Shown: positions 21,192-39,805, numbered from the stretch's first letter. The stretch is DNA of 64,000 bases from Salinibacter sp. 10B (GCF_002954405.1 NZ_MQWC01000004.1:3474668-3538667); one strand, 5' to 3'. The notes: generated by a model not told the origin, from the sequence alone. Numbers and translations: made by a program.

Positions 21192-21509
21192 GGTTCGAGT
21201 AAGATGCCTTTGGGGGGGTATCCTCGGCGCGAGAATGCCGGCCGTGGGACACGTAGATGGGGAGGAACATCCCATTTCCGTGTGTCTTCGAGATCCAGCT
21301 ATGTTTGTGGACGTTTGTACAATCCGTTTCGGCGAATTGAGGCACTTTGCTTCCGCCCGCCTGCTTGTGCTTTCCATCAGAGCGGAGGTGAGGTGTAGGC
21401 GACAAGATGCACGAAGCGAAACGGATAGAGATATTTGTCTTCCGCATTGATGAAATCCCCGCTGGGGCACATTCCCCCTGGATTGACGCCTGGCAAACTG
21501 GACCACCGG

Positions 21510-22868: not shown

Positions 22869-23048
22869 TTTCCCGATGCAATTCGATGAGGAACGTTGTT
22901 TGACTGCAGAGTCCAGTAGAGGGGAACGAAGTTGTTTTATAACAACCCGCTGTTCTCGGAGCATACGGGAACGGCGTAGCGGGAACTTTTTCGTTGTGAT
23001 GCGACTCATTTCGTTACCGACTCACCAACACTAGGCTGTGTGGACGGC

Positions 23049-23303
23049 ATGATTACACGTATCCGTACACTATTACTGTTTGCTTTAATGCTTGGGCTCG
23101 TGACTGGGATTCCGTTTGAGTCAGCGTATGCCTATGGAGGACCCGGCAGTGTGCTTTCAGGGATCGGAACGCTACTTGCCGCGCTCGCTGCCATCATCGC
23201 GTCTCTCTTTGGGTTTATCTGGTTTCCTCTGAAGCGGCTCCTCCGGAAGTTTCGGGAGGACGAGGCGACCGCGCCCGCAGAAGCAGACCCGGCAGGCGAA
23301 TGA
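23049..23303 (+). CDS. Small membrane protein, possible partner of the sulfotransferase genes
   Basis: The 84-residue product has a signal-like first hydrophobic segment (TLLLFALMLGLVTGIPF), a YGGPGSVLSG turn and a second long hydrophobic helix (LLAALAAIIASLFGFIWFP) followed by a basic stretch LKRLLRKFRED. The arrangement resembles small proteins of the type aromatic-x-DPG/GPG before a helix and a basic end, found beside envelope phosphatase or sulfatase-type genes. No function is known. Its stop overlaps the next start (ATGA), so translation is coupled. Confidence 0.7.
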   Translation: MITRIRTLLLFALMLGLVTGIPFESAYAYGGPGSVLSGIGTLLAALAAIIASLFGFIWFPLKRLLRKFREDEATAPAEADPAGE

Positions 23304-23683
23304 ATGTCGTATTAGCGGTTTTCGTCGTGGTCGGGTTTGCGGCCACGATCGAGTATTTCGATCTGCCCCTCCACGCCCGCAACGTCACACAGCGGGGGAG
23401 TGACAGTCTGGCGGTGCTGCGGGACGATTCGCTCTCAGACCTTGAAAAGGAGGAGGCGCTCCAGCGACAGGCCCGACGTCTGTTTGGGCTTCTTGGCATT
23501 CTGGCTGGGGGAAGCATCCTTGCGCTCGGCGCGCCACTGGGGATCGTGTGGCTCTTGGGACGAGTCGGGATCGGGTCGTTCGAGCGGACGCTGTCCGTTT
23601 TGCAGCGCCTCGACTTCCTTGGGGGAACGATCCTCGTGGGGGCTTTGGCATATCTCTTCATTCAACGGCTCCGTACATCATGA
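23300..23683 (+). CDS. Two-helix membrane protein of unknown function
   Basis: The 127-residue protein has an N-terminal hydrophobic segment (NVVLAVFVVVGFAATIEY), a soluble loop with a predicted helical DLEKEEALQRQARRLFGL part, and two further hydrophobic segments near 75-92 and 108-120. It overlaps both neighbours by four bases (ATGA on each side), showing strong translational coupling to the small membrane protein before it and the sulfotransferase after it. No family recognised. Confidence 0.72.
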   Translation: MNVVLAVFVVVGFAATIEYFDLPLHARNVTQRGSDSLAVLRDDSLSDLEKEEALQRQARRLFGLLGILAGGSILALGAPLGIVWLLGRVGIGSFERTLSVLQRLDFLGGTILVGALAYLFIQRLRTS

Positions 23684-24759
23684 ACTTTGAGGAGCGCTAC
23701 GGATGGCTTGACCGGCTCTTGTACCGCATCGCGTTTCGGGCCGGGACTGCACAGCACGCCCTGGCTGACGTGGAAAAAGGGATGTATGGAGAGGATCTTC
23801 GCCCGGTAGAGGATCCGGTATTCATCACGGCCCTTCCGCGGTCGGGCACCACCATTCTCCTGAAGTTGCTGTGGAAGACGGGGCACTTTGCCAGCCACAC
23901 GTATCAGGACATGCCGTTTATCTTATGTCCTCTGTTTTGGAATCAGTTTGCGCGCTCGTTTTCCACTGAGGACACGACTCGCGAGCGGGCGCATGGAGAT
24001 GGGCTCCAGGTATCGGAGACGAGCCCAGAGGCCTTTGAGGAGGTGGTTTGGAAGCACTTCTGGTCCGATCATTACGAGCCGGATCGCATTCGTCCCTGGA
24101 CGGCCGAAGACCGAAACCCGGCGTTCAATCGTTTCTTCGACACCCACATGCGGAAGGTGGTGGCGGTGCGAGAAGAGGAGGGACAGGGGCCGCTCCGCTA
24201 CGTATCGAAAAATAATCTCAACATTGCTCGTCTGGCGAATCCGGCGCCTGCCCTTCAACGCGGCACCATCCTGATCCCATTTCGGGCGCCGCTCCAACAG
24301 GCCGCCTCCATGCATCGTCAGCATCACCGCTTCTTGGACATCCACCGGCAAGACGACTTTGTCCGGAAGTACATGGAAGCCATCGGACATCATGAGTTCG
24401 GCGAGGGGCTACGGCCCGTGAACTTCGATGGCTGGTTGGAGGACGCGGCCGATCCGAGCGAGTTTGCGTTCTGGGTCCAATACTGGATTGCGGCATACCG
24501 GCACGTTCTTCGGCACGCCGGGGAGTCGACGGTTCTTCTCTCCTATGCTCGACTTACGGACGAGCCGGCGGCGGTGCTCGGCCGACTCACCGACTGCCTT
24601 TCAATTCCGGACGATCGACTTGTGTCACAGGCGGATCACGTGCGTTCGCCGCGTGAGCATGAAGTAGACGAGTCCGACGTTTCGAACACGCTCCTCCGCG
24701 AGGCTGAAGCGGTGTACGAGCAGCTTCAACAGCGTGCGGCGGCCCTCGTCTCCAGTTAA
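23680..24759 (+). CDS. PAPS-dependent sulfotransferase family protein
   Basis: The start at 23680 (MNFEERYGW) overlaps the preceding stop in ATGA. The 5-prime phosphosulfate-binding loop is visible as ITALPRSGTTILLKLL (about residues 48-63), and a 3-prime phosphate-binding segment as ILIPFRAPLQQAASMHRQHH. About 359 residues, mostly alpha-beta. The family transfers sulfate from PAPS to hydroxyls of glycans, lipids or small molecules. The substrate is unknown. The operon with an ASST-like protein and two small membrane proteins points to a surface or secreted acceptor (inference). Confidence 0.85.
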   Translation: MNFEERYGWLDRLLYRIAFRAGTAQHALADVEKGMYGEDLRPVEDPVFITALPRSGTTILLKLLWKTGHFASHTYQDMPFILCPLFWNQFARSFSTEDTTRERAHGDGLQVSETSPEAFEEVVWKHFWSDHYEPDRIRPWTAEDRNPAFNRFFDTHMRKVVAVREEEGQGPLRYVSKNNLNIARLANPAPALQRGTILIPFRAPLQQAASMHRQHHRFLDIHRQDDFVRKYMEAIGHHEFGEGLRPVNFDGWLEDAADPSEFAFWVQYWIAAYRHVLRHAGESTVLLSYARLTDEPAAVLGRLTDCLSIPDDRLVSQADHVRSPREHEVDESDVSNTLLREAEAVYEQLQQRAAALVSS

Positions 24760-24918
24760 AACGGGGGCGGTTGCGTCAGCATAAAATACACTTCCGAGGG
24801 GGGAGAACCGTCATCGCCGCCGCTCCAGGCCATCTAGAGGACTGGTATCGAGGTGTTTTAGAACGACGCAGAAGCCCTTTGTAAATGCCCCCCGGACTGT
24901 GCCGTCGGGGCCGGTCGG

Positions 24919-26352
24919 CTAGTTGAAGGACAGCGTGCCGTTCCACCGAAGGCCGATACTTCCGCCCAACCGGTTGTCGTAGTACTCCCCCATGTCGATC
25001 GCAAGCGAACCGAACACCTGGAGGTTGTGCTCTCCTGGCAGGCGATACCGCACCCGACCCAGTACGGAGTACTGGTCCTTGCGGAGCTCGCCTCGCGGTC
25101 GCACGGTTTGGTCGGGAGGAGCCGGCCGGTCCGCGAGGACCTCACACGTCCCGGTGATGATCTGGTCCTCGCAAACGCCGTAATTGCGGCTGTATGTGAC
25201 GCGGAGCTGGTACCCAAGGCGCTTGGTGGGCGTGCCGTTGAGGCCCACATGGTGTGCAATCACCATGTTGTTTTCCATTTGGTTGGTTTCCGGGTTGAAC
25301 ACGAGGAGCGGAGTGCCCAGAACCGTACCCTGATAGGTCCAGCCACTCTCGTAAACGAAGTGGCCATAGTATCCGGCGCGTCCCCGGGGGGCACCGGGCA
25401 AGGCGTCCTGCTGAAGGGTGTTCATGTGCTCGTAGAGAACGCTATTGATCCAGCCCTGTCCGGTTTGGCGACGAATCCCGAGGCTCCAGACCCCGTCCCA
25501 TGGACTCCGAAACTGCATCGAGACGGTGTCCTCCAGGTAGAAGAGCCGGGTGGCCTGTAGGCGCCAGTCCGTGAGGTCGTACTGCAGGGCAAAGTCGTAC
25601 GCCGCAATGGTGTTGCCCGTCCGGTTTTGGTCCACCTTCGTTCCCTCCAACGATCCAGAGACCACACGCACGTAGTCGTTCCACCCGGTCGGGCGTCCCG
25701 TTCCTCCCCACACCGTATTTTGGACCAGCCCGCCGATCGCCGACACGTCCGCGACGTTGAACTTCAGGTAGAGGGTCTTCTGGTGGAGCAGGGCTGACTC
25801 GACGACGCGTTCTGTTCCCAATTGGCCGTCCGACCACCGTCCGCGGATCTGCACGTGCCCATGGGTCCACGGCACATCCAGGAAGTCGGGCGTGAACAGC
25901 TTCATCATCGGTACCGGTGGGGCATTACGGCTCACCATCATCGAGCCCATCGAAAGATCGTTCCAGCCGAGTCCAATGGTATCGGAAAAGCGGCCGACAC
26001 TGAGCCGAATGCCGCGGTGTTGTGCTTTTCCGTACAGCGTATGGAGATGCAGGCTGTTCGAGGCGTCGGAGAGACGTCCGATGACCTCGGCGCCCGCGCT
26101 CACCTGAAACTGTCCAACGCGTTGAAACGGCAGCGTCAGTCCCGCGCCGGAAAGCCAGTTGGTGGTGGAGCCCCTTCGAAATTGGCCACGCGTATTCGCA
26201 TAATGCCAGAATGGAAGGGTCCCGTCTGGGCTTCCGCGCAGGGTTGAGAAGGCATGGTAGTTCAGGGGTTGAGCCCGTACCGCAGTCCCCAGATCGCCCA
26301 AGAGAGCAAGCGCAAGCGCCAGGATACACAGTGCCGTACTCTGCAGTCGCAT
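24919..26352 (-). CDS. Wzi-type capsule assembly outer-membrane protein
   Basis: The start at 26352 (MRLQSTALCILAL) gives a signal peptide ending VRAQP; a 53-codon upstream extension is rejected. The 477-residue protein is an aromatic-rich beta-barrel with the Wzi-family patterns: early FWHYANTRGQ, VSRNAPPVPMMK, TPDFLDVPWTHGHVQIRG and late GYYGHFVYESGWTYQGTVLG followed by GTPLLVFNP. In enteric bacteria Wzi binds capsular polysaccharide at the outer surface. It is the last gene of a minus-strand operon with a flippase-like protein, a glycosyltransferase and a sulfotransferase, which supports a surface-glycan role. Confidence 0.8.
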   Translation of the reverse strand: MRLQSTALCILALALALLGDLGTAVRAQPLNYHAFSTLRGSPDGTLPFWHYANTRGQFRRGSTTNWLSGAGLTLPFQRVGQFQVSAGAEVIGRLSDASNSLHLHTLYGKAQHRGIRLSVGRFSDTIGLGWNDLSMGSMMVSRNAPPVPMMKLFTPDFLDVPWTHGHVQIRGRWSDGQLGTERVVESALLHQKTLYLKFNVADVSAIGGLVQNTVWGGTGRPTGWNDYVRVVSGSLEGTKVDQNRTGNTIAAYDFALQYDLTDWRLQATRLFYLEDTVSMQFRSPWDGVWSLGIRRQTGQGWINSVLYEHMNTLQQDALPGAPRGRAGYYGHFVYESGWTYQGTVLGTPLLVFNPETNQMENNMVIAHHVGLNGTPTKRLGYQLRVTYSRNYGVCEDQIITGTCEVLADRPAPPDQTVRPRGELRKDQYSVLGRVRYRLPGEHNLQVFGSLAIDMGEYYDNRLGGSIGLRWNGTLSFN

Positions 26353-26407
26353 AGCGGAGATGCGAATGAATGAAGGCGGCAGCGTGGAGGGGAAAGGACC
26401 GGCAGAC

Positions 26408-27499
26408 TCAGGAGGCTGAAGGAGACACCTCGGAGGGGGAAACCGCGTCTTGCGTGGAGAGATCTGCTGACTCTGCTGCGTCTTCGGGAGGCGCAGGGGC
26501 GTCCGTGTCATCCGGTGGCGACGTGGAAAGAGACGCGTTCCGATCGTACCACGATACCAGCGCGAAAAGAAGCAAGCCTAATCCTTTATCGAGCACGCTG
26601 TGGACGGCGAGAACGCCGGCGAGCCCCGCCTCCGGGACCTGTACTGCACCGGCCATTTCCAGTCCCACGGCCATGAAGAACAAGTCCTGGCTGGGCATGA
26701 GCGGGATCCGCTTCGTAATGATTTGCACAGCGAGAAACGTGAGCCACGTTTGGACGGCGACCTCGGGTAGAGCCACGGCCCACTGGGTGACTTGAAGGCC
26801 CTGCAGAAGCAGCAGTCGACCAAAGTAGAGGCCGAAGAGGCCCAGAATGAGCGCCCCGGACAGCTTGAAGACGGAGCGCCAGAATCGGATGCCCACCGCG
26901 AGGATAGCGATGATGCCCACAACGCCGGCGACCATGTAGATCCACGTCCGGTCGGAGAGCATCGGAAACGTCACCATACCCGTGGTGAGAAAAATGCCCA
27001 GGAGGACAACGGCGTTGGAGGTTGACGCGACCGACGAGACGATGGTGTTGTCCTTGATGTGGTGGGCAATTTCACCGTCCGTCAGGTTCAGGTGAGCGCG
27101 AGCCCAGGAAAAGAGATACATCTCGCCCGAGTAGTTTAACACTTCTTTGTTGTAGACACCCGACTTGAGGAGAGGAGGGAAGAGCGTTCGGAAGGGCCGC
27201 TGCCAGATGATGCTATAGCCGATCGATTGGAAGATCGGGAGCAGGAAGTAGAGGGCGAGAAAGAGGACATAGAACCAGGGCGTGGTCGGCAGGGCGGCCC
27301 AGATGCGTCCCCATCCGATGTGGGTCATCTGGTAGGCCAGGTACGCGATGACAGCAGCGGTTACGCCGTGCCGGAGGATCGACAGCGTCCATTCACCGGC
27401 GGTTGTGCCCGCCCACGTCTCGACACGCTCCTTCAAATGGGTGACCCATCCCGTCAGACGATGGTACAGCGAGGAGAGAGAGCCCGGCATAAAAGACAT
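26408..27499 (-). CDS. UPF0104/LPG-synthase-TM-type flippase-like membrane protein
   Basis: The 363-residue protein has about eight hydrophobic segments (for example 45-60, 75-95, 155-180, 190-205, 212-232) and the pattern of the lysylphosphatidylglycerol synthase transmembrane family, also found in polysaccharide clusters as a presumed flippase. The last 60 residues are Ser, Asp, Ala and Pro rich and probably disordered and cytoplasmic. Its ATG overlaps the stop of the glycosyltransferase gene (TAATG), so they are translationally coupled. The transported substrate is unknown. Confidence 0.78.
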   Translation of the reverse strand: MSFMPGSLSSLYHRLTGWVTHLKERVETWAGTTAGEWTLSILRHGVTAAVIAYLAYQMTHIGWGRIWAALPTTPWFYVLFLALYFLLPIFQSIGYSIIWQRPFRTLFPPLLKSGVYNKEVLNYSGEMYLFSWARAHLNLTDGEIAHHIKDNTIVSSVASTSNAVVLLGIFLTTGMVTFPMLSDRTWIYMVAGVVGIIAILAVGIRFWRSVFKLSGALILGLFGLYFGRLLLLQGLQVTQWAVALPEVAVQTWLTFLAVQIITKRIPLMPSQDLFFMAVGLEMAGAVQVPEAGLAGVLAVHSVLDKGLGLLLFALVSWYDRNASLSTSPPDDTDAPAPPEDAAESADLSTQDAVSPSEVSPSAS

Positions 27500-28323
27500 T
27501 ATTGCTGAGCAAGAGCGGCGGCCGGGGCGGCATCCGGGGCGTGCCGAAACAGATCGAGGTCGGCAGAGTCTTGCAGGTAGGTTTCAAAGGCGTCCCAGGC
27601 GACATCGGAAAGCTGGAAGCGCCGGTGGCGGAAGAGATCACCCCGCACGTACCGGTGCCACACATACGCAATGGCGTCGCGGGGGGTGTTGCGCATTCGC
27701 GTTAAGAAGTGCTTCTGCTCCCAGGTATTGTCGCCGTGGAAGCATCGGATGAACAGGTGCGACTGGTCGGTTGGGAGGATCTGGTAGTCCCGTTCGAGCC
27801 AATGATCGAGGTAGACTGTATCCTCGGCACGGGGCATCTCCGGGTAGCGCGCGTTCTGGTCCCGGCGGTGCATGATGCTGCCCGGCACCCCGTCGTCAAG
27901 CAGGCCGATGTACGGGTGGTAGAAATACTCCGGGGCGTCGAGGTGCATGAGGGTGCCATGCAGTGCGCAGGCATCTGCCCCTTCGTCGAGCACCGCTGCC
28001 TGCGTTTCCAGGCGGGTTTTGTGGTACCAGTCATCATCGTCCCACTGAGTGAGGTAAGCGCCAGAGGCCTCGTCAAGGGCCACATTGCGGAGCGCCCCGA
28101 GGACGTGATCGATGGTTGGGTCGAGCGTCACGTACGTGACTTCCTCGTCCGAAAGATCCGAAAGAATTGGGGCAAGGTCAGTCTCCCCATCGTCCACAAC
28201 CACGAGTTCACGATTCGGATAGGTCTGTCGCCGATAGCACCGCACAGAGCGGCGCATGAGGCGGGGACGGTCGGCCGTCACCATGAGGCAACTGATGAGG
28301 GGGCGGTCGTCGGACGCCGACAT
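27499..28323 (-). CDS. Family 2 glycosyltransferase
   Basis: With the start at 28323 (MSASDDRPLISCLM) the product has 274 residues and the GT-A fold pattern: ISCLMVTADRP as the first strand, NRELVVVDDGE, then YLTQWDDDDWYH containing the metal-binding DxD-type cluster, and a later ARYPEMPRAEDTVYLDHWL corresponding to the ED catalytic-base region. It should transfer a sugar from a nucleotide sugar on the cytoplasmic side. It sits between a sulfotransferase and a flippase-like gene in one operon. Confidence 0.87.
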   Translation of the reverse strand: MSASDDRPLISCLMVTADRPRLMRRSVRCYRRQTYPNRELVVVDDGETDLAPILSDLSDEEVTYVTLDPTIDHVLGALRNVALDEASGAYLTQWDDDDWYHKTRLETQAAVLDEGADACALHGTLMHLDAPEYFYHPYIGLLDDGVPGSIMHRRDQNARYPEMPRAEDTVYLDHWLERDYQILPTDQSHLFIRCFHGDNTWEQKHFLTRMRNTPRDAIAYVWHRYVRGDLFRHRRFQLSDVAWDAFETYLQDSADLDLFRHAPDAAPAAALAQQ

Positions 28324-28447
28324 GCAGATAGGGCTCGACAGTTGGGGGAGTAGCGGGATACGCACCCCACGGAGGCGGTCGACCGAGGTTCCAAAGAGAC
28401 GATTGATTCCCGGAGGAGCATCTCACGGGCGGGACACCGGGTAGGGG

Positions 28448-29278
28448 CTACGACCATGCCTCAATGCGGCGTCCCAAAAGGTCATACAGCGCCTCCTGGT
28501 GTGGAGCATAATATTCTTGAAGTTGGGTTCGGGTCTCCGGGTCCGGCGTTCGCTTCCAGGGGGACGAGAAAAAGTCCACGGGGCGGGTGAGGGCGATTGG
28601 AACCGGGAGCCAGTAATTCAAGTACGTACGTGCCTTGCTGAACGAGTGGACGTGACGGGCCTCGTCGGAGGCCGCTTCGAGACGATCTGGATTTAGATTC
28701 AGGAAGTCACAGGTTTTCTGGATTCCTTGATCGGGATTGTTGACCACATCTTCCTCGAAGATAAGGATTTGCAACTGATCGCGCCGGAACAGCTCCATGT
28801 AGTCGTGCAGGGGCTCGGCGTACGCGCCCATCGAGAGAACGCCGTGTCGCCGACACAGGTGCTGGTACTCGCCGAAGAGGACCTGCTTCATGGGAACGTG
28901 AGGAGGGAAGCGCCCCCGACAAAGATGGTGGTTGTAGGCGGATACAGCCCGGTCGACGGGATTTCGGAGAATGGCCAACAGTTTGACGTCGGGCAGAGAC
29001 TCTGCGATGCGCCGGTGGGTGTCGGAGGCGTCACTGCCGGAGGCAGGAACATTAGTCCACAGGTAGTTGGGGGTTTTCTCACCAATGAGGCACCCGTTTT
29101 TCGCACCGCGAAACTGCCGAGAATACCAGTCGAGTCCCCGTTGGTAGGTCCGGTCTTTGTTGAAAAAGTGAAGTTCACGGTCGGGCATGTACACGTCCGG
29201 ATGGCGCCGAAGCATCTCACGGAGCCAGGTGGTACCGGCCTTTTGGGCACCAATGATGAGAAAGTCGGGAAGGGGCAT
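28448..29278 (-). CDS. PAPS-dependent sulfotransferase
   Basis: The 276-residue protein is a typical bacterial heparan-type sulfotransferase domain. The phosphosulfate-binding loop FLIIGAQKAGTTWLREML is at residues 6-23, the 3-prime phosphate loop is LAILRNPVDRAVSAYNHH, and LHFFNKD with the GEKTPNYLW motif lies between. It is unrelated in detail to the sulfotransferase at 23680-24759. As the first gene of the Wzi operon it probably sulfates the surface polysaccharide built there (inference). Confidence 0.9.
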   Translation of the reverse strand: MPLPDFLIIGAQKAGTTWLREMLRRHPDVYMPDRELHFFNKDRTYQRGLDWYSRQFRGAKNGCLIGEKTPNYLWTNVPASGSDASDTHRRIAESLPDVKLLAILRNPVDRAVSAYNHHLCRGRFPPHVPMKQVLFGEYQHLCRRHGVLSMGAYAEPLHDYMELFRRDQLQILIFEEDVVNNPDQGIQKTCDFLNLNPDRLEAASDEARHVHSFSKARTYLNYWLPVPIALTRPVDFFSSPWKRTPDPETRTQLQEYYAPHQEALYDLLGRRIEAWS

Positions 29279-29437
29279 TGAAGCAGAAGGTAGGTCCAGA
29301 GCAACCGCGGTAGATACACGTCCAAAAGCAGTGACGTTTCCCGAGGGCGGAGCAAAAGGTGTTACCTCGGTCGGGCCAATGACGGCTATACCGGCGGGGA
29401 ATGGTGGCGCGTTCTGTTTCTATTCAGTACTTTATCT

Positions 29438-30181
29438 ATGATCCACTTTGCTTCGTTTTCCGGTCTGAATGCTCTCCGATGGTTCATTGGGGGGATTGCA
29501 GGGCTTTTGCTGGTTGCGGGAATTGCGCGAGGGGCTGTTGCTCAGGAGACTCCTCAGGTGGTTGACAACTTCGAGCAATATGATCTGGGACAGCCGCCGT
29601 CGCAGTGGGTCCGCGTCGACTCTCGGGATGACGTGCGGCCTGCAGCCCAGGCCCTGGAGCCCGGCGAACGGTTTGATGTACTAGAGGAGGAAGGAAACCA
29701 GTTCGTGCGTCTCTACACGAACAACCAGTACATTCGCTTTAGCCAGCGAAATGGGAAAGAGTTTGATTGGGATTTGCGTGATCATCCGCGGTTGCAGTGG
29801 CGCTGGCGCGCTCTTACCCTACCGAAGGGGGCAAGCGAAAAAGGGGAAAACGACACCGGCGGAGCCGTCTACGTCACGTTTGGCTCCGACTGGCTGGGGC
29901 GTCCCAAGAGCATCAAGTACACGTACAGTTCAACCCTGCCCGTTGGAACTGTCGTGTCCTTTGGGCCTCTGAACGTTATTGTCGTCAATTCAGGTCGCGA
30001 GCCCGGCATGGGCACGTGGAAGACGGAGACCCGGAACGTCATTGACGATTACAAGCAAATCTTTGGGGATGCGCCGCCCAATCGGCCCGTGTCCATTACA
30101 ATCTCTGGAGATTCCGACTCGACCGGCGACGAGTCGAAGGTGGACATTGACGACATCATGCTCTTGCCCGCTCGGGAGTGA
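29438..30181 (+). CDS. DUF3047 secreted protein
   Basis: The 247-residue protein has a signal peptide (about 1-35, ending AVAQE) and the DUF3047 pattern: LQWRWRALTLPKGA, NDTGGAVYVTFG, SIKYTYSSTLPVG, and near the end TRNVIDDYKQIFG with SGDSDSTGDE. This beta-sandwich domain is found in exported proteins of unknown function. It is divergent from the sulfotransferase operon and starts a plus-strand series with a glycosyltransferase. Confidence 0.82.
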   Translation: MIHFASFSGLNALRWFIGGIAGLLLVAGIARGAVAQETPQVVDNFEQYDLGQPPSQWVRVDSRDDVRPAAQALEPGERFDVLEEEGNQFVRLYTNNQYIRFSQRNGKEFDWDLRDHPRLQWRWRALTLPKGASEKGENDTGGAVYVTFGSDWLGRPKSIKYTYSSTLPVGTVVSFGPLNVIVVNSGREPGMGTWKTETRNVIDDYKQIFGDAPPNRPVSITISGDSDSTGDESKVDIDDIMLLPARE

Positions 30182-30275
30182 GTAGGGCCCACATTTCTTA
30201 ATTGGGGGACCAATTCCAAGGCTGCAGGCGTGAACAGTGACTCCACCATTTGTTCGGTAGATCTGTTCTTCCCCG

Positions 30276-31250
30276 ATGGCCGCGCGCGAAGGCTACGTCT
30301 TTCACAGCTACGGGCCCGTTCGGTACGCACAACATGCCGTGGTGTCGGTTCAGACCCTCCGGCGCCACGATCCCGACCGCCCGGTGGCCCTCTACTGCCC
30401 GCCGTCGCACCAAGAGCTTCTGGAGCGGACAAAACTGGCCGATACGTTCGACGTGATCGGCACCCTGCCGGACGCGCATCGGTCCATCGTGGGGTTTAAG
30501 CACCACCTTCATGAATTCAAGCCGTTTGAACGGTCGCTCTTTGTGGACGCCGACATGATCTGGTGTCGCGATCCGGATCCGCTCTGGCAGCAGTTTGCCG
30601 CTTTTCCGTTTACGGCGACGGGACTCCAGAATGCCGATCACTTCTTTGGCGGGCCCAAGGGCATTGGTGTGCTTGTAGATATGCTGTTCCGGCGCCGGCA
30701 GCGGACGCTGCACCGGTTTGGGCTCACCTCGCTTCCGCGCGTACAGGCCGGAATGATCTACGCGCAGGATGAGGCCGTCACCCGTGCGGTGGGCGAGCAC
30801 GCCGCCGAGTTTTTGGCGCAGTCGGATCGCACGCACTTCCGGAGTCGCCTGAAGGAGGGCCGGTCGGAAGAAACCTGTGAGTGGAGTCTGGCGATGGCGA
30901 TGCGCGAGCTTGAACTTCACGTGTTTCCGTGGCTGCAGGGACAGAACAGTCCACAACTCGACTACATCGGTGCCCTCGTCGATCACGACCCGGCGTTCGA
31001 GGACGTAACGTATCGCTACTACACCTCCCCGTTCGTGTACGAGCTCCGCGGGATTCCCAATGATACGCTGCTGAACACGCTGCTCGGGGCGGCCGAGCGC
31101 ATGCCCCGAATGGGGGAGTACGTGACGTTTACCCCGTACGTCCTCCACTTTGGCTGGCTACACCAAAAAGAGCCGTTCTACGACTTTGCTGAGCGGATGT
31201 GGGCACGGCTCACTGAGGAGCAGGTCACCCCTTCGCGGGCAGAGGCATAG
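30276..31250 (+). CDS. Glycosyltransferase of GT8-like fold
   Basis: The 324-residue protein has a nucleotide-sugar-type alpha-beta fold: YGPVRYAQHAVVSVQTLRRH, FKHHLHEFKPFERSLFV leading to DADMIW (residues 91-96) as the DxD metal site, LQNADHFFGGP and a VQAGMIY segment typical of GT8-like acceptor loops. The C-terminal HFGWLHQKEP resembles the closing HxxG segment of such enzymes. The donor and acceptor are unknown. It follows the DUF3047 gene by 94 bases and may belong to the surface-glycan region. Confidence 0.72.
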   Translation: MAAREGYVFHSYGPVRYAQHAVVSVQTLRRHDPDRPVALYCPPSHQELLERTKLADTFDVIGTLPDAHRSIVGFKHHLHEFKPFERSLFVDADMIWCRDPDPLWQQFAAFPFTATGLQNADHFFGGPKGIGVLVDMLFRRRQRTLHRFGLTSLPRVQAGMIYAQDEAVTRAVGEHAAEFLAQSDRTHFRSRLKEGRSEETCEWSLAMAMRELELHVFPWLQGQNSPQLDYIGALVDHDPAFEDVTYRYYTSPFVYELRGIPNDTLLNTLLGAAERMPRMGEYVTFTPYVLHFGWLHQKEPFYDFAERMWARLTEEQVTPSRAEA

Positions 31251-32445: not shown

Positions 32446-34446
32446 ATGAGCGGCATAGTCGGCGTTTATCATCTCCAGGGCGATCCCATTTCGCACCCGG
32501 GACTCGCGGACATGCTTCAGGCAATTGCGCACCGCGGCCCGGACGGACACGAGGTCTGGTATGGCGAGGGCCTTGGCCTGGGACATGCAGCGCTCAACAC
32601 GACCCCGGAAGCGGCACACGAGCGCTGGCCGCTCCGTTCCCCGGATGGTACTCGTGTACTGGTGGCCGATGCTCGGATCGACAATCGCGAAGAGCTTTGC
32701 TCCAAGCTGTCGCTGTCTCGTTCATCCGAAGCGGTCGTGACGGACGCCGATTTAATCCTGGCGGCGTACGAGCACTGGGGGGGCGAGTGTGCGAGGCATC
32801 TCATTGGGGATTTTGCATTTGCCCTCTGGGATGAGGAGCGTCGGCACCTGTTCTGTGCCCGTGACGTGTTCGGCGTGCGTCCGTTTTTCTACCGTTACGA
32901 TGAGGAGCGACGCTTCGCATTTGCTTCGGAAATCAAGGCGCTCCTTGAATGTGAGGACGACGGGGCAGCATTGAATGAGGAGCACATGGCCGATTTTTTG
33001 GTCGGGATCGTGTCCGATGCAACCGCTACCGTCTACAAAGACATTCTGCGGCTGCCCCCGGCTCACACGGCGCTAGTGACACGCACAGGACTCCGCCTCG
33101 AGCGCTACTGGGCGCCCGACCCGGACCGTCGCATTTACTATTCCACCGATGCGGAGTACGCAGCGGCATTTCGAGCTCACTTCGACGAAGCCGTCCGGTG
33201 CCGGATGCGGAGTCCAGGGGGACGCGTCGGAGCCTTGCTGAGCGGGGGACTCGATTCGTCCTCGATCGTAGCGACGGCCCGTGAGAAGGGGCGCGACTCG
33301 GCGACGCTACACACCTTTTCGACCGTGTTCGACGAGCACCCGTCGTGTGATGAGCGGCGGTATATCGAGGCGGTTACGGAGAAGGGAGGGGCGATCTCCC
33401 ACGTCACGTCGGGCGATGAGGTGTCGCCGGTGCGCCTTCTCGACACGCTTGGGGCGTCGCAGGACCAGCCGTTTGGGGCTCCGACCCTTGCTCTGTCGTG
33501 GCTGCAATACACGAAGGCCCGGGCGGAAGGCTGTCGCGTGTTGTTGGACGGACATGGGGGCGATGAGGTGGTGTCTCATGGAGAGGGGCGGCTCTTCGAG
33601 CTGGCCAAGGCAGGGCATTGGGGGGGGCTCGCCCGCGAATTGTATGGACTTCGCCGAACCGGACGAGTGTCGTCTGCGTGGGCGCTCTTCTGGCGGTACG
33701 TTTGGGGCGTGGGCATTGGCCCATGGCTCCAATCCCATCCGCGCGCTCAGGCTGCCTGGAATACGGCGCAACGATTGAAAACCGTTATGCCGAATGGGGC
33801 GGGGGGAGAGGCTCTTCCCCCGGAAAGGGAGGAGCTAGACCTCCTCACTCCTTCCGTTCGAGGGCGTACCGCGGTTGAGGAGCGCTACCATACCCATCTC
33901 AAGGCGAGGGGCCGGCCTGCCAGCGAGGCCGAGCGGCACGCCCGCCTCTTGACTCATCCCGTGCAGGTGCAGGGATTTGAGGTGCTCGATCCGCTCGGGG
34001 CGTCCCGTCAGGTGGAGACGCGGTACCCGTTCTGGGACCGGCGGCTGGTCGAATTTTGTCTGGCCCTTCCCGCCGACCAAAAACTGCGAAATGGATTGGG
34101 GCGCTTCGTTCTGCGATCGGCCATGCAGGGACGACTTCCCGCGTCGGTGCGTCTTCGTCCGACGAAGGCCGACTTCCTGCCGTTTCTGCGTAAAGACATG
34201 ATTCGGGAAAAGAAGCGGGTGCATTCGCTCCTATTCTCCCCCCTAAGGGGAGCAAAAGAGTATGTAGAGGAGACAGAGTTGCGGGAGATTTGGTGCAGAC
34301 TCTTCGAGTCCGAAGGGGCTGCTGTGCAGCCGCGCGACGTGTTTTCAGTTTGGACCGCGGCGGTATTTCTGCACTGGTTCCGACAGAAGCAATCCGTCGG
34401 GGCGAATGACAGTCGGCCCTCGGGGTATGCGAGTAGCGGACCCTAG
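32446..34446 (+). CDS. Lasso-peptide macrolactam synthetase (C protein, asparagine-synthetase-like)
   Basis: The 666-residue protein has the two domains of class B asparagine synthetases: an N-terminal glutaminase-like fold (MSGIVGVYHLQGDPI, HRGPDGHEVW, LVADARIDNREEL) and an ATP-PPi synthetase domain with SGGLDSS at 266-272. The glutaminase nucleophile Cys2 is replaced by Ser, so no ammonia should be released. That fits a lasso cyclase, which adenylates an Asp or Glu side chain of the precursor and joins it to the core N-terminus. The precursor, kinase, exporter and both B proteins follow on the same strand. A true asparagine synthetase is unlikely because of the Ser2 and the context. Confidence 0.93.
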   Translation: MSGIVGVYHLQGDPISHPGLADMLQAIAHRGPDGHEVWYGEGLGLGHAALNTTPEAAHERWPLRSPDGTRVLVADARIDNREELCSKLSLSRSSEAVVTDADLILAAYEHWGGECARHLIGDFAFALWDEERRHLFCARDVFGVRPFFYRYDEERRFAFASEIKALLECEDDGAALNEEHMADFLVGIVSDATATVYKDILRLPPAHTALVTRTGLRLERYWAPDPDRRIYYSTDAEYAAAFRAHFDEAVRCRMRSPGGRVGALLSGGLDSSSIVATAREKGRDSATLHTFSTVFDEHPSCDERRYIEAVTEKGGAISHVTSGDEVSPVRLLDTLGASQDQPFGAPTLALSWLQYTKARAEGCRVLLDGHGGDEVVSHGEGRLFELAKAGHWGGLARELYGLRRTGRVSSAWALFWRYVWGVGIGPWLQSHPRAQAAWNTAQRLKTVMPNGAGGEALPPEREELDLLTPSVRGRTAVEERYHTHLKARGRPASEAERHARLLTHPVQVQGFEVLDPLGASRQVETRYPFWDRRLVEFCLALPADQKLRNGLGRFVLRSAMQGRLPASVRLRPTKADFLPFLRKDMIREKKRVHSLLFSPLRGAKEYVEETELREIWCRLFESEGAAVQPRDVFSVWTAAVFLHWFRQKQSVGANDSRPSGYASSGP

Positions 34447-34485
34447 GCCCCTCTTCCTTTTTTCCGATTACATCACCTTCTCGAT

Positions 34486-34647
34486 ATGAACAAGCAGAAG
34501 AAAACCTATTCATCTCCGATTCTGGTCGAGCACGGAAGCGTCGACGCCATTACGGGTCAGAACAGCGAAGCCCGTGAGTATCTGGACCAGCCGTTTGGAA
34601 CGGGGACCCCTTACGGAGACCTCACTTTTTCCGGACCGCTTCACTAA
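34486..34647 (+). CDS. Lasso-peptide precursor (A protein), 53 residues
   Basis: ATG at 34486 opens 53 codons ending in TAA at 34645-34647. The basic leader (MNKQKKT) leads into YSSPILVEHGSVDAIT (residues 8-23), an exact fit to the lasso leader motif Y-x2-P-x-L-x3-G-x5-T recognised by the B1 protein. The core follows: G24, QNSEARE, then a long tail with Pro, Gly and aromatic residues ending SGPLH. Glu31 is the likely ring-closing acid. Starting at Gly24 the ring has 8 residues; the usual Thr-minus-2 rule places the start at Gln25 with a 7-residue ring. It is 39 bases after the cyclase gene. Confidence 0.9.
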   Translation: MNKQKKTYSSPILVEHGSVDAITGQNSEAREYLDQPFGTGTPYGDLTFSGPLH

Positions 34648-34667
34648 TAAAATATCAAAGACGGAAC

Positions 34668-34695
34668 GAGGGCGGCCTCGAAAGGGGCCGTCTTC
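34668..34695 (+). terminator. Intra-cluster hairpin after the precursor gene
   Basis: GAGGGCGGCC (34668-34677) pairs with GGCCGTCTTC (34686-34695), ten base pairs with two G-U wobbles and an eight-base loop, 20 bases after the precursor stop. It lacks a full T-run (TCTTCT only). It may be a leaky terminator or an mRNA-end stabiliser that raises precursor expression relative to the downstream enzymes; this is inference. The rest of the 173-base gap holds no supported gene. Confidence 0.5.
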
Positions 34696-34820
34696 TCCGT
34701 GTCGAATAGAAATAAGTGGACGACCGCAGGGGTTGAAGGGAGGCGTCGTTCAGAACAATCGGATGTACACTTTCACCTTCACCGTTCCGGACATTCCGGT
34801 CGGGGAGAAATTGCCAGTCG

Positions 34821-35753
34821 ATGAACGCATACATTGCCTACGGGCTTCACATTCACTCCGATATTGTACTTCCGGAACTGGAGAGGTCCGATCGGGCCAC
34901 TCCGGACGTTCGAATTCATCGTCGAATTCTGCCCGCGTCGGCCGTGCTGCACACGCATCATGAATACGGTCCTGGGGTGGCGATGTACGAATGGTCGGAC
35001 ATCGGACGATTTCGCGTCGTCGATGGTACTGAGATCCATGCGGAGTTGGATCCGAATGTAGACGCACGCCTTGTGCGCTTGCCGCTCCTCGGAACCGTAA
35101 TGGCCGCACTTCTTCATCAGCGCGGGTTTTTGGTCTTGCACGCCAGTGCGGTGGCCATCGAGGGACAAGGGGTCGCGTTCGTTGGACACAAGGGATGGGG
35201 AAAGTCGACGACGGCTGCTGCCCTTTATGCACGAGGACATGCCATGATTACTGACGACATTCTCGCCGTGGCCCCCGGAGCCGGGGCGCCGGAGGTAGCA
35301 GCTGGGTTTCCTCAACTGAAACTTCACCCTGCCTCGGCACAGGCGGCCCTCGGGGATGACCCGTCTGCTCTGCCTGAGCTGGCCGATCGCGTCTCGAAGC
35401 GAGCTCGAACAGCCCGAGATGGATTTCAGGCAGCCACAGGCGTGCCTCTCTCGGCCATTTACGTGTTGGGGAAAGGACCTCAACTTGCCGCAACAGAAAT
35501 CCCGGTGCAGCAGGCGTTCGTGGAGCTGCTCCGGTACTCCTACAATGTTTCGCAACTCCGAGCGGTCGACGATCCGGGACTTCCGGCGCTCTTCCGTCGA
35601 TACGCCGACCTCGCAACTCACGTCCCACTCTGGTCGCTCCAGCGGCAAGAGGATTTGCACGCCCTCTCCGATATTGCACAGCTCATCGAGTCCAGGACGA
35701 GGGAGGACCGATCGGGGACGAACGCATCCATTTCTGCCACGGTCCGCGTCTAG
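34821..35753 (+). CDS. HPr-kinase-like lasso-cluster kinase (K protein)
   Basis: The 310-residue protein has a variable N-terminal half and a HprK/P C-terminal-type domain: LHASAVAIEGQGVAFVG, the P-loop GHKGWGKST (residues 122-130), TAAALYARGH, and MITDDILAV with the paired Asp 145-146. In paeninodin-type lasso clusters such kinases phosphorylate the C-terminal Ser side chain of the precursor. Here the precursor ends in His with Ser49 four residues before, so the acceptor is unclear. The gene lies between the precursor and the exporter, with 12 bases to the latter. It is not the carbohydrate-control HprK, which has a different N-terminal domain. Confidence 0.85.
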   Translation: MNAYIAYGLHIHSDIVLPELERSDRATPDVRIHRRILPASAVLHTHHEYGPGVAMYEWSDIGRFRVVDGTEIHAELDPNVDARLVRLPLLGTVMAALLHQRGFLVLHASAVAIEGQGVAFVGHKGWGKSTTAAALYARGHAMITDDILAVAPGAGAPEVAAGFPQLKLHPASAQAALGDDPSALPELADRVSKRARTARDGFQAATGVPLSAIYVLGKGPQLAATEIPVQQAFVELLRYSYNVSQLRAVDDPGLPALFRRYADLATHVPLWSLQRQEDLHALSDIAQLIESRTREDRSGTNASISATVRV

Positions 35754-35765
35754 TCGATATTGCAT

Positions 35766-37679
35766 ATGCACTCCACGTTTACGGCCACTGTACACGACGC
35801 CCGACGGCGACTCGGAGATCTGCTCCGGGCTCTGCACCTTGTGTGGGAGGCCGCTCGTCGGTGGACCCTTCTGTGGGTGCTCTTTCTGGTCGTGCAGGGC
35901 ACGATCCCGACCGCAACCGTCTACCTCACGAAATGGCTCGTGGATGCGGTGGCTGAGGGGCTTGGGGGAGGGCTTACCTGGGAGGTTGCGGTTCCTGTGC
36001 TCATTCCCGCAATGCTGGTGGGAGGACTCATGCTATTGGCGGAGGTATTTGGAGGCCTGATGGGGTGGGTGCAGACGGCCCAGTCCGAATATCTGCGTGA
36101 CCACATCAAGGGGCAGATCCATGAGAAGGCCGTTCGGGTCGATTTGGCATTTTATGAAAGCCCGGCCTATTACGACCACATGGCCATGGCGACCGACGAG
36201 GCCGAAGGGCGGACGCTGTCGTTATTGCAGAGCCTTGGGCAGATGATCCAGAGCAGCATCACGCTTATGGGCGTGGCGCTCTTGCTTTTGCCGTATGCAT
36301 GGTGGCTGCCTCTTGCCTTGCTGGTAAGCACAGCGCCAGCTCTTTGGGTAGTGCTGGTGCACCGCCGGCGTCACCACGCCTGGTGGGAAGACACGGCGCC
36401 CGACCGCCGGTGGACAAACTACTTCAACCGAGTGCTTACGCTTCCCTTTTCGGCGGCCGAAGTGCGACTCTTCGGGCTCGGATCCCACTTCCAAGAGCAG
36501 TACCGAACCCTTCGAGAGGAGCTCCGAAATGGTCTTATTCGGCTCACCGGGCAGCAGAACTGGGCGCGGCTCGGGGCCGCAAGCATCGGGCTCCTCGTCA
36601 CGGTTGGGGTGATGGCATGGATGGGCATGCGAGCACTGGGCGGTCGGGCAACGCTCGGCGACCTCGCCCTGTTCTACCGTGCCTTTACCGAAGGCAAAGA
36701 CCTTATGCGGACGCTCTTGAATGGGGCGGGAAGTGCCTACAGCGATGCCCTCTACCTCGAACATCTCTTCACGTTTTTGGAGCTTACGCCCCAGGTCACG
36801 AGCCCGGCGGAGCCCGTTGCACTGCCTTCCGCACAGGCCCGTGAGATCCGGTTTGAAGAGGTTGGGTTCCGGTATCCCGATAGCGACGAGTGGGCCCTGC
36901 GCAATTTTTCTCTCACCATCCCTGCGGGCAAAACGGTAGCCGTTGTTGGGCCCAATGGAGCAGGAAAAAGCACGCTCACGAAGCTCCTCTGTCGCTTCTA
37001 CGATCCCCAGGAGGGGCGCATTCTGGTAGATGGCGTGGACCTTCGAGACTGTGATCTCGAGGCTCTTCGGGACGACATCACGGTTATGTTCCAGTATCCG
37101 ATGCAGTACATCGCTACCGCGGCCGGCAACATCCAGATGGGCGACCGCCGGGCGGAGGGCACCCGTGAGCGCGTGAAGCAGGCGGCCCGCGCCGGGGGGG
37201 CACACCGCATTATCGAGCGGCTACCGGACGGCTATGATACGCTTTTGGGCAAACAGTTCGAAGGAGGCGTGGAGCTAAGTGGAGGACAGTGGCAGCGCAT
37301 TACACTTGCGCGCGCCTTTTATCGAAAGGCGCCCATCGTCATCCTCGACGAGCCCACTAGTTTCATGGACTCCTGGGCCGAGATGCAATGGCTGGAACGG
37401 TTCCGCACGCTCGTGTCTACTCGCACCGCGATTCTCGTCACCCACCGTTTTACCACAGCCATGCAGGCAGACCTCATTTTCGTCATGGTGGACGGACAAG
37501 TGGTGGAGACGGGGTCCCACGAAGATCTCGTGACACAAGAGGGCATGTATGCGGACTCCTGGCAGGCCCAGACGACGGTGCGGGAGCTTGGAGACGACCG
37601 TGGAGCGTCCGCTGCGCCGGAGCACGGCGTCCCTTCTGCAAAAAATGGACGCTCGTCACTCTCACCCGGTTCTCATTAG
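35766..37679 (+). CDS. ABC exporter of the lasso cluster (D protein)
   Basis: The 637-residue half-transporter has an N-terminal six-helix membrane domain (for example LLWVLFLVVQGTIPTATVYL near residue 40 and segments near 80, 165-190 and 285) and a C-terminal ATPase: Walker A GPNGAGKST, Q-loop VMFQYPM, signature LSGGQWQRITLA, Walker B IVILDEPT and a switch His in VTHRF. There is no C39 peptidase domain, as expected where the leader is removed by B2. In lasso clusters such exporters secrete the mature peptide and give self-immunity. The next gene begins 16 bases after its stop. Confidence 0.92.
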   Translation: MHSTFTATVHDARRRLGDLLRALHLVWEAARRWTLLWVLFLVVQGTIPTATVYLTKWLVDAVAEGLGGGLTWEVAVPVLIPAMLVGGLMLLAEVFGGLMGWVQTAQSEYLRDHIKGQIHEKAVRVDLAFYESPAYYDHMAMATDEAEGRTLSLLQSLGQMIQSSITLMGVALLLLPYAWWLPLALLVSTAPALWVVLVHRRRHHAWWEDTAPDRRWTNYFNRVLTLPFSAAEVRLFGLGSHFQEQYRTLREELRNGLIRLTGQQNWARLGAASIGLLVTVGVMAWMGMRALGGRATLGDLALFYRAFTEGKDLMRTLLNGAGSAYSDALYLEHLFTFLELTPQVTSPAEPVALPSAQAREIRFEEVGFRYPDSDEWALRNFSLTIPAGKTVAVVGPNGAGKSTLTKLLCRFYDPQEGRILVDGVDLRDCDLEALRDDITVMFQYPMQYIATAAGNIQMGDRRAEGTRERVKQAARAGGAHRIIERLPDGYDTLLGKQFEGGVELSGGQWQRITLARAFYRKAPIVILDEPTSFMDSWAEMQWLERFRTLVSTRTAILVTHRFTTAMQADLIFVMVDGQVVETGSHEDLVTQEGMYADSWQAQTTVRELGDDRGASAAPEHGVPSAKNGRSSLSPGSH

Positions 37680-37695
37680 TTTTGAGGAGTTCTCG

Positions 37696-38964
37696 ATGTC
37701 TTTTGCCTTTGTTTCCGCTTCAGCGCCCCCCTTCCTTCGTTCGGCTCCGCCCTTCGCACCGGAGACGCAGCTTCTGTGTCTGTGTGCGCGGTCTGAGGTG
37801 GAGGGGGAGCGGGAGGATCGCCTTCGGGCCCTCCTCGCAGAGCCACTCGATTGGGCCGCTGTGCTCACGGCGGCCGCGCTTCACGGCGTTTCGGGAATGC
37901 TCTACCACCACCTTGCCCGTCACGCTGCCAGCGTTCCCGCCGATGCGTTGTCGTGTCTCCAACGCCGTGCGCAAGCTACGCAGTTTTACAACATGCGGGT
38001 CATGACAGAGCTGGTACGAATCGCGGCACTGTTTCGGGCCGAGGGGATTCCGCTTCTCACCTACAAAGGGGCTGCTCTGGCCTCTCGCTACTACGGAAAT
38101 CTGGCCTTTCGGCGTTTCGGGGACGTAGACCTTCTCGTTCATCGGGACAATCTGGGCCAGGCGAAAGCTCTTCTGCTCGGGGAAGGATACGCCACTGTTC
38201 GGTCGCTATCGGACGAACAAGAGCACATGAGGCATGAGGCACAGCTCGGCTATGAGTTGCACCACGAAGAACGGGACGTGCTCGTCGAGCTGCATTGGGC
38301 ACTGCTCAACCGTGCACTCACATTCCGCCTCTCGTCCGATGACGTATGGGCGCGATCCACGACGCACCAGTTCGGCACCAGTTCGGTGCAGGTGCTCGAT
38401 CCGGATGATTTACTGCTGTACCTGTGTGCGCACGGGACCAAGCATCACTGGAGCCGTCTGCTGTGGGTGAGCGACGTGGCGCAGGTGCTGCGGGCAGATC
38501 CCGATCGCGACTGGGGACGGCTGATGAAGCGAGCCCGTTCGATCGGGAGCCTGCGCACCTTGCTTCTAGGGGTGATCCTTGCGGGGCGGTGGCTGGACGT
38601 GGAAGTGCCGCCGGAGGTGCATCGCCGAATTGCGTCAGACGAAACGGTCGAACGGCTGGTGCAAGAGGTGGAGACGAAGTGGTTTGGTACGCAGAAAGGC
38701 CTCTTTCGGCCCGTCGAATGGTCCACGTTCTGGTTCGCCTTCCGCACGCGCCAGCGCCTGCGCGACAATCTGGCCCTTCTCGGGCACTACGCGGCCCTGG
38801 CCGTAACGCCGACCGAGCACGATTATGCGTTTCTATCGCTTCCTCCATCCCTCTGGGGATTGTACTACCTCATTCGTCCGTTTCGCCTCCTTCGAGATGG
38901 GGGCCGCGCCCTTGCTCGTCTTGTGGACGGAACGGCCAAACCAACGTCACACCATGCGCAATAA
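37696..38964 (+). CDS. Nucleotidyltransferase-like protein (NTP_transf_5 type) of the lasso cluster
   Basis: I chose ATG 37696 because a good ribosome site (gaggag) lies seven bases upstream; a frame start at 37549 would overlap the exporter deeply. The 422-residue protein matches the uncharacterised nucleotidyltransferase family with EGIPLLTYKGAALASRYY (about 116-133) followed by RRFGDVDLLV (139-148), which supplies the metal-binding acids, and VLVELHWALL later. Proteins of this type recur in kinase-bearing lasso clusters, but their reaction is unknown; they might add a nucleotide or sugar-phosphate to the peptide. It overlaps the B2 gene by 11 bases. Confidence 0.8.
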   Translation: MSFAFVSASAPPFLRSAPPFAPETQLLCLCARSEVEGEREDRLRALLAEPLDWAAVLTAAALHGVSGMLYHHLARHAASVPADALSCLQRRAQATQFYNMRVMTELVRIAALFRAEGIPLLTYKGAALASRYYGNLAFRRFGDVDLLVHRDNLGQAKALLLGEGYATVRSLSDEQEHMRHEAQLGYELHHEERDVLVELHWALLNRALTFRLSSDDVWARSTTHQFGTSSVQVLDPDDLLLYLCAHGTKHHWSRLLWVSDVAQVLRADPDRDWGRLMKRARSIGSLRTLLLGVILAGRWLDVEVPPEVHRRIASDETVERLVQEVETKWFGTQKGLFRPVEWSTFWFAFRTRQRLRDNLALLGHYAALAVTPTEHDYAFLSLPPSLWGLYYLIRPFRLLRDGGRALARLVDGTAKPTSHHAQ

Positions 38965-39442
38965 TGTCACCAGACGGCTGCTTTCTCGCGGAAGGCGGGG
39001 AGCACAAACGCTGCGCCGGATCACCTGGGCCGAATGGAAAGCGCTCGGCCTTGCGGGGGGCACGGTGATGGCCGTCGCCCTGCTCCTACGTCTGGTTTCG
39101 TTTCGACGCGTCCAGCGCCTGCTTTCGGGGGCGGCGTCTCGATCGGAGTGCTCCGTGCGGCTGAGCGAAGACGACGAGCAGCGACTACTGTGGGCCGTCG
39201 CAGCGATAAGCCGGCGGCTGTTCCCGGCTCGTCCGTGCCTCACGCAGGCCCTTGCCGCGCAGGTCCTCCTTCGGTGGAGGAAGGGGCGACCCGCACAGTT
39301 GCGCATCGGCGTGGCTCGGGCCGACGACAATCAAATTCGGGCCCATGCCTGGCTCGAGCGAGACGGGAACGTCCTAATTGGAGGGGGCGCATCGCCTCGG
39401 GTTTACAGCCTGCTTTCCGGACGAGCAGAGGACCCCCTTTAG
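38954..39442 (+). CDS. Lasso-peptide leader peptidase (B2 protein, transglutaminase-like)
   Basis: The start at 38954 (MRNNVTRRLL) overlaps the preceding gene by 11 bases and gives 162 residues. The protein has a basic N-terminal region and the Transglut_core3 pattern of lasso B2 proteases: Cys95 in ARPCLTQALAAQVLL, His131 in IRAHAWLE and Asp137 in RDGNVLIGG as the Cys-His-Asp triad. B2 cuts the leader from the precursor, guided by B1. B1 follows after about 50 bases on the same strand. Confidence 0.92.
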   Translation: MRNNVTRRLLSRGRRGAQTLRRITWAEWKALGLAGGTVMAVALLLRLVSFRRVQRLLSGAASRSECSVRLSEDDEQRLLWAVAAISRRLFPARPCLTQALAAQVLLRWRKGRPAQLRIGVARADDNQIRAHAWLERDGNVLIGGGASPRVYSLLSGRAEDPL

Positions 39443-39493
39443 GGAGACCTGCTCCAGCTCATTTCTTTTCTCCTCATAGACGAATTGACGACA

Positions 39494-39805
39494 ATGGACT
39501 CAACTTCCCAGCAGCTTTCGCTTGACAGCTCCGTAGCGCGCACCGACGACAACTTGTCGTCCAATCTCGCCGGGGAAGAAGTGATTTTAAACCTCATGGA
39601 TGGCGTGTACTACGGCTTGAACGAGGTCGGGGCGCGTATCTGGGCCCTGATGGAGACCGCCGACACGCCCCGCGAGATCTGTGATGCGCTCCAAGAAGAA
39701 TATGACGTGGACCGGAGCACGCTCGAATCGGACGTGCGTGCTATCCTGGTGGATATGGAGGAGGCCGGGCTCATTGAATGCTCTCCCGATCGGGGAGACG
39801 AGTAG
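39494..39805 (+). CDS. PqqD-like leader-recognition protein (lasso B1, RRE)
   Basis: With ATG at 39494 the product has 103 residues. It shows the winged-helix PqqD/RRE pattern: ILNLMDGVYYGLNEVGARIW, then REICDALQEEYDVD, then VRAILVDMEEAGLIE. In lasso pathways the separate B1 protein binds the precursor leader at the YxxP motif and presents it to the B2 peptidase and cyclase. It is the last recognisable gene of the cluster. A TTG three codons earlier is possible but unneeded. Confidence 0.92.
   Translation: MDSTSQQLSLDSSVARTDDNLSSNLAGEEVILNLMDGVYYGLNEVGARIWALMETADTPREICDALQEEYDVDRSTLESDVRAILVDMEEAGLIECSPDRGDE

Follow-up and report, generated by a model that had tools for sequence, protein, structure and literature searches.

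The 64,000-nucleotide stretch of Salinibacter sp. 10B analysed here (hereafter, the window) very likely carries an intact kinase-type lasso peptide cluster containing both an HPr-kinase-like peptide kinase (K) and a nucleotidyltransferase-like protein (N), a kind known from the bsf and pseudomycoidin clusters; this grading is a joint one for cluster identity and the mechanism proposed below. Seven lasso genes occupy positions 32446-39805, all on the plus strand, full-length and almost contiguous, in the order C-A-K-D-N-B2-B1 (Table 1), and every gene that the initial annotation had placed there is present and intact. Its view that a Rhodothermota halophile here carries a complete lasso cluster of the kinase type is right, and the cluster itself is supported by curated models, invariant residues and the predicted folds of K and N. 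The gene set, gene order, enzyme families and conserved motif residues can be read directly from the DNA, and on these grounds the match of the seven genes to lasso families is not due to chance. Rhodopsins are present in all 10 good genomes of the window genus.

Table 1. Features of the lasso peptide cluster, in window coordinates
Feature	Position	Strand	Properties
C, lasso cyclase, asparagine-synthetase-like	32446..34446	+	666 aa; NF033535 664 bits, cut-off 525
A, precursor	34486..34647	+	53 aa; lasso leader model NF033521 20.8 bits, cut-off 19
RNA hairpin	34661..34700	+	directly 3' of A; folding z = -4.4 to -4.7
K, HPr-kinase-like peptide kinase	34821..35753	+	motif spacing, fold of model
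D, ABC exporter	35766..37679	+	ABC_tran 110 bits, ABC_membrane 34 bits
N, NTP_transf_5 nucleotidyltransferase-like tailoring enzyme	37696..38964	+	PF14907 218 bits
B2, leader peptidase (C95, H131)	38954..39442	+	NF033537 81 bits, cut-off 33
B1, leader-binding RRE, PqqD-like	39494..39805	+	PqqD 74 bits, cut-off 23

Enzymes of the cluster

The score of C exceeds the lasso-cyclase cut-off by 139 bits. The SGGLDSS ATP loop begins at residue 266, and S2, SGG, D270 and S271-S273 are invariant in nine aligned sequences. The N-terminal Cys of glutamine amidotransferases is replaced by Ser in the window protein and in all nine aligned lasso cyclases, which argues against C being a glutamine-using synthetase, an outcome that the initial annotation had named as fatal to its reading. 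The leader-processing functions are split into an RRE protein (B1) and a transglutaminase-like leader peptidase (B2). B1 matches TbiB1 (5v1u; E 6e-16) and TfuB1 (6jx3; E 2.5e-5). For B2, a Cys95/His131/Asp137 triad had been suggested; Cys95 and His131 are indeed conserved, but at position 137 Asp occurs in just 13 of the 71 distinct B2 segments, which makes a catalytic role of this residue unlikely. The exporter gene D might alternatively start at a TTG codon at 35760, and D probably has a self-immunity role besides export.

K scores 33.2 bits against Hpr_kinase_C, just under the cut-off of 33.3. Its motif residues (H107, G122, G125, G127, K128, S129, D145 and D146), all eight invariant across 26 sequences, are spaced exactly as published for BsfK (PMC10368454). 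The structural model (pLDDT 91) matches PEPCK/HPrK folds at E-values of 1e-7 to 4e-6, and K is thus predicted to adopt a PEPCK/HPr kinase fold. In N, the motifs K124-G125 and D143-x-D145 correspond to KG and DxD elements that are invariant in 20 sequences, and the model (pLDDT 86) has a nucleotidyltransferase fold matching MenT1, ANT(2'')-Ia and LnuA. N (37696-38964) also weakly matches the fold of the CDP-ribitol phosphosugar transferase FKRP, which suggests that the group transferred by N-type enzymes might be a sugar phosphate and not a nucleotide.

The precursor family and the leader-core junction

The leader of A has the pattern Y8-x2-P11-x-L13-x3-G17-x5-T23, and its core shares with precursors of Mesorhizobium, Nostoc, Calothrix and Pyrinomonadaceae the succession of a ring Asp, Phe, Thr-Pro and then L-T-F-S. 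The candidates for the ring acid are Asp34, at the family position, and Glu31; the conserved tail T47-F48-S49 is followed by GPLH at the C-terminus. The relatives of this type (Mesorhizobium, L105 and others; Nostoc sp. MG11, L081; Calothrix sp. PCC 7716, L151; Pyrinomonadaceae, L080; and the same-family genomes G016 and G018) have the same leader, equally spaced D, F, T-P and T-[FL]-S elements, and a kinase and a cyclase nearby. Alignment of seven precursor types from four phyla gives ten invariant columns, four of them in the leader (Y, P, G and T) and six in the core (D, F, T, P, T and S). The leader Y-to-T spacing and the core D-to-S spacing are each 15 in all seven types. When the window core was compared with each of the six other family cores, 0-60 of 200,000 shuffles matched as well. 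Judged by these sequence features, the window precursor is a member of a family found in four phyla.

Among 240 genomes of the class, this core was found in the window, G016 and G018 only, the remaining matches being weak and mostly confined to the leader. At the G016 locus (L049), C, K and the L-T-F-S precursor are present, but no N, B2 or B1 was found in the surrounding 20 kb or in 12 kb upstream; locus L174 has no more than a partly similar ABC protein. The NCBIfam model NF033534 'rhodolasso' describes precursors from the same order that are likewise linked to K (L043, L045 and L046); their core is unlike that of the window precursor, which reaches 16 bits with this model, where the cut-off is 30. 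This Rhodothermus-type model is already present at NCBI, and the L045 precursor scores 103 bits against it. L043, L045 and L046 of the window order, and L053 and L054 of the window family, encode lasso-type precursors lacking an acid at core positions 7-9; two groups of them share C-x2-G-K-Q-x-G (SCWYGKQGGQYD and GCAFGKQIGAPSD), one group being that of 'rhodolasso'.

The window precursor departs from its family at the junction between leader and core. One residue more than in the family lies between Thr23 and Asp34 (T-to-D spacing 11, compared with 10 in the other six types), and either the cut site or the ring size must therefore differ. A sequencing indel is an unlikely source of this residue, as a whole in-frame codon is involved and lies outside any homopolymer. 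A comparable +1 spacing is seen in roughly four lineages that are unrelated. Three options are conceivable for the window: a cut after Gln25 with a nine-residue ring, a cut after Gly24 with a ten-residue ring, or a seven-residue ring closed on Glu31. With Thr23 at the usual position -2, Asp34 would be core residue 10, and Glu31, at position 7, would be the sole acid within positions 7-9. With a cut after Gln25, Thr would be at -3 and the ring would span Asn26-Asp34, nine residues as in the family. The last arrangement is weakly favoured, while the otherwise nearly universal placement of Thr at -2 counts against it.

A natural ten-residue ring from Gln25 to Asp34 would keep Thr23 at -2. In its favour, the fusilassin enzymes tolerate an engineered ten-residue ring (PMC13352647). 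Of 83 deduplicated K-linked precursors, 63 carry an acid at position 8 or 9, and in five position 10 is acidic while positions 7-9 are not. We regard this product as quite improbable, because structurally characterised lasso rings contain 7, 8 or 9 residues only (PMC13352647) and because a shifted cut is the simpler explanation of the Bryobacterales pair L116 (T-LQ-KDKHTGVSD) and L110 (T-L-KDKRNGTSD), in which one residue is added beside the leader and the nine-residue ring segment is kept. In the K-linked precursors L100, L114, L116 and L155, the only plausible ring acid is at position 10 if Thr is taken as -2.

Phosphorylation, maturation and comparison with known systems

Based on characterised relatives (PMC10368454, PMC9266682, PMC8498205), B1 would bind the Y-P-L leader of A and present it to K and B2. 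K would phosphorylate A while it is still linear, with Ser49 in the conserved L-T-F-S tail as the most likely acceptor, and B2 would take off the leader next to Thr23 by means of Cys95 and His131. C would then adenylate the ring acid, most likely Asp34, and close the macrolactam around the threaded tail, and D would export the product and protect the producer. N may decorate the peptide further, probably by attaching a sugar to the phosphate in the manner of PsmN. The GPLH tail would either stay or be trimmed. The likely product is thus an exported lasso peptide phosphorylated at Ser49. Several of these steps have counterparts elsewhere: BsfK works with BsfB1 (PMC10368454), and, according to a review, PadeK acts on the precursor and PsmN adds hexose after PsmK (PMC9266682).

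Ser49 is the best candidate for phosphorylation, as no other core serine is invariant in the family. Its non-terminal position counts against it, since the Ser recognised by characterised C-terminal kinases is the last residue (PMC8498205). The family Ser is the last residue in the Mesorhizobium, Nostoc and Pyrinomonadaceae precursors, but is followed by D in G018, VCS in G016, GPLH in the window and ETPMRG in Calothrix PCC 7716. As the Calothrix and Nostoc kinases are sisters in the tree, closely related kinases face both kinds of tail.

An alternative site is suggested by BsfA (PMC10368454) and LppA (PMC13381572), in which core Ser3 is the phosphorylated residue. A cut after Gly24 would leave Thr23 at its customary position of -2 and give a window core beginning Q1-N2-S3-E4-A5-R6-E7; Ser27 is then core residue 3, Glu31 is a permitted ring acid, and position 1 carries a residue that is frequently Q or N among K-linked precursors. 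The same cluster could then modify Ser27, as BsfK and LppK modify their substrates, and close a seven-residue lactam on Glu31, an option to which the BsfK-like motif spacing of K also lends itself. This is nonetheless unlikely: position 3 is G, S or Q in the six closest types and so is not conserved in the family, whereas Ser49 and Asp34 are invariant, and retention of a D-to-S distance of exactly 15 suggests that the ring-tail unit is conserved around Asp34. Phosphorylation at Ser49 thus remains preferred. More broadly, it is conceivable, though rather less likely than not, that some kinase-type lasso systems, that of the window included, break the rule of Thr at -2 and a 7-to-9-residue ring by one junction residue, through a later cut or a ten-residue ring, and that the window kinase phosphorylates a Ser that is not C-terminal.

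Among described systems, the bsf cluster of Bradymonas sediminis (BsfA, B1, B2, C, D, K and N; PMC10368454) has the same seven genes, N included, with identical kinase motif spacing and a Y-x2-P-x-L leader at equal distance. The two differ at position -2, which is Ile in bsf and Thr in the window (Thr23, 15 residues after Tyr8), in their cores, and in the phosphorylated residue, which is core Ser3 in bsf, whereas the conserved candidate in the window is Ser49. The psm cluster of Bacillus pseudomycoides likewise combines an HPr-type kinase with a nucleotidyltransferase-like N in a lasso cluster; according to reviews, pseudomycoidin receives phosphate first and then hexose, and the modified residue is a C-terminal Ser, whereas the window Ser is followed by GPLH (PMC9266682, PMC8498205). 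Clusters of the paeninodin type in Bacillota (PadeK, ThcoK) are also kinase-type with split B1/B2, and their kinase acts on the linear precursor. Their leader, however, has a near-invariant W in W-x2-P (PMC13381572), compared with Y8-S-S-P11 in the window, and the window precursor ends in S-G-P-L-H without a C-terminal Ser; by these sequence criteria, the paeninodin type is not the closest label for the window cluster. Linear polyphosphorylated peptide (LPP) systems have no macrolactam cyclase and use an SpI-type leader peptidase; the window encodes C and B2 and is therefore not of this kind.

Distribution, locus history and significance

The gene content and order had been thought possibly to define an undescribed lasso family, a suggestion that does not hold, as the gene set is already described, the D-N-B2-B1 block recurs (in the same-family genomes G014 and G021) and the precursor family spans four phyla. 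Likewise, treating HPr-type lasso kinases as mainly a matter of Bacillota was an overstatement: they have been described in Sphingobium and Bradymonas (PMC8498205, PMC10368454), and occur in cyanobacteria, Mesorhizobium, Acidobacteriota and archaea. Similar cyclases passed a strict threshold in 22 of the 60 relatives that were sampled, and at most of these loci they are accompanied by K, B1, B2 and D, and often by N. A scan of named genomes with a single cyclase protein gave no matches, whereas the same scan with a cyclase alignment as query gave 79 loci, nearly all with K, spanning cyanobacteria, Mesorhizobium, Caulobacter, Acidobacteriota, Rubrobacter, Rokubacteria, Thermodesulfobacteriota and archaea. 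The kinase-type gene set is also found across Rhodothermales and in a haloarchaeon; the K and C proteins of L142 (Rhodothermales) and of the same-order genome G035 are identical. Outside Mesorhizobium the commonest order is B1-B2-C-A-K-D-N, which differs from that of the window. A search of mainly open-access literature yielded no publication that deals with lasso peptides from Salinibacter or Rhodothermus.

In quick trees with many weak inner branches, the K protein of the window groups with those of G016 and G018 (support 99), and the LTFS tail is common to all three. In the C tree, the window is sister to G018 (support 99), and both fall with G016, Mesorhizobium and Caulobacter in one group of 10 rows (support 86).

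The hairpin after A folds better than any shuffle of its sequence and has no clear U-run. Among 10 stretches downstream of related precursors, 7 have a z-value at or below -2. The hairpin probably protects the transcript or attenuates it, with the effect that A is made in excess of the enzymes. Scans for sigma-70 promoters and terminators gave nothing above shuffles.

At the corresponding place in another genome of the genus (G008), a scar alone is present (L177; G008:C188, 2138-2504). It consists of a frameshifted 303-bp piece of D, with 79% identity to window 36882-37184, joined to the last residues of B1, by the homologue of window gene 39842, indicating that the lasso cluster or a close relative was once at this locus and was later lost. 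A mobile insertion confined to the present genome is less likely in view of this scar. Together with the patchy presence of the cluster across the genus, the scar might suggest that the window, too, holds a decaying remnant without a product; this is highly improbable, as its seven genes are full-length with every family motif intact, and its precursor retains the spacings of its family.

Upstream, positions 21435-31250 encode an arylsulfotransferase-like protein, two sulfotransferases, a family 2 glycosyltransferase, a Wzi-like capsule protein and a DUF3047 protein, and this looks like a sulfated surface polysaccharide region. A tailoring role of the upstream sulfotransferase and glycosyltransferase genes is unsupported, since genes 29438, 30276 and 31312 stay together elsewhere in the genus without the cluster. 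In G004, G007 and G010, lasso clusters of other types lie no more than about 30-75 kb from the homologue of gene 31312, as if its region attracts lasso clusters.

The cluster type is thus already known and common, and what appears unusual here is the extra junction residue and the four residues after the family Ser. Precursors that are closely related can differ in having or lacking the extra residue, as in the Bryobacterales pair and in the window compared with its L-T-F-S relatives, and the cut rule of B2 and the ring size of C are therefore testable through this +1 shift. The spread of the kinase corrects the view that lasso HPr-type kinases belong to Bacillota, and the cluster adds an intact phospho-lasso-type example from an extreme halophile to a class that has been characterised in few hosts.
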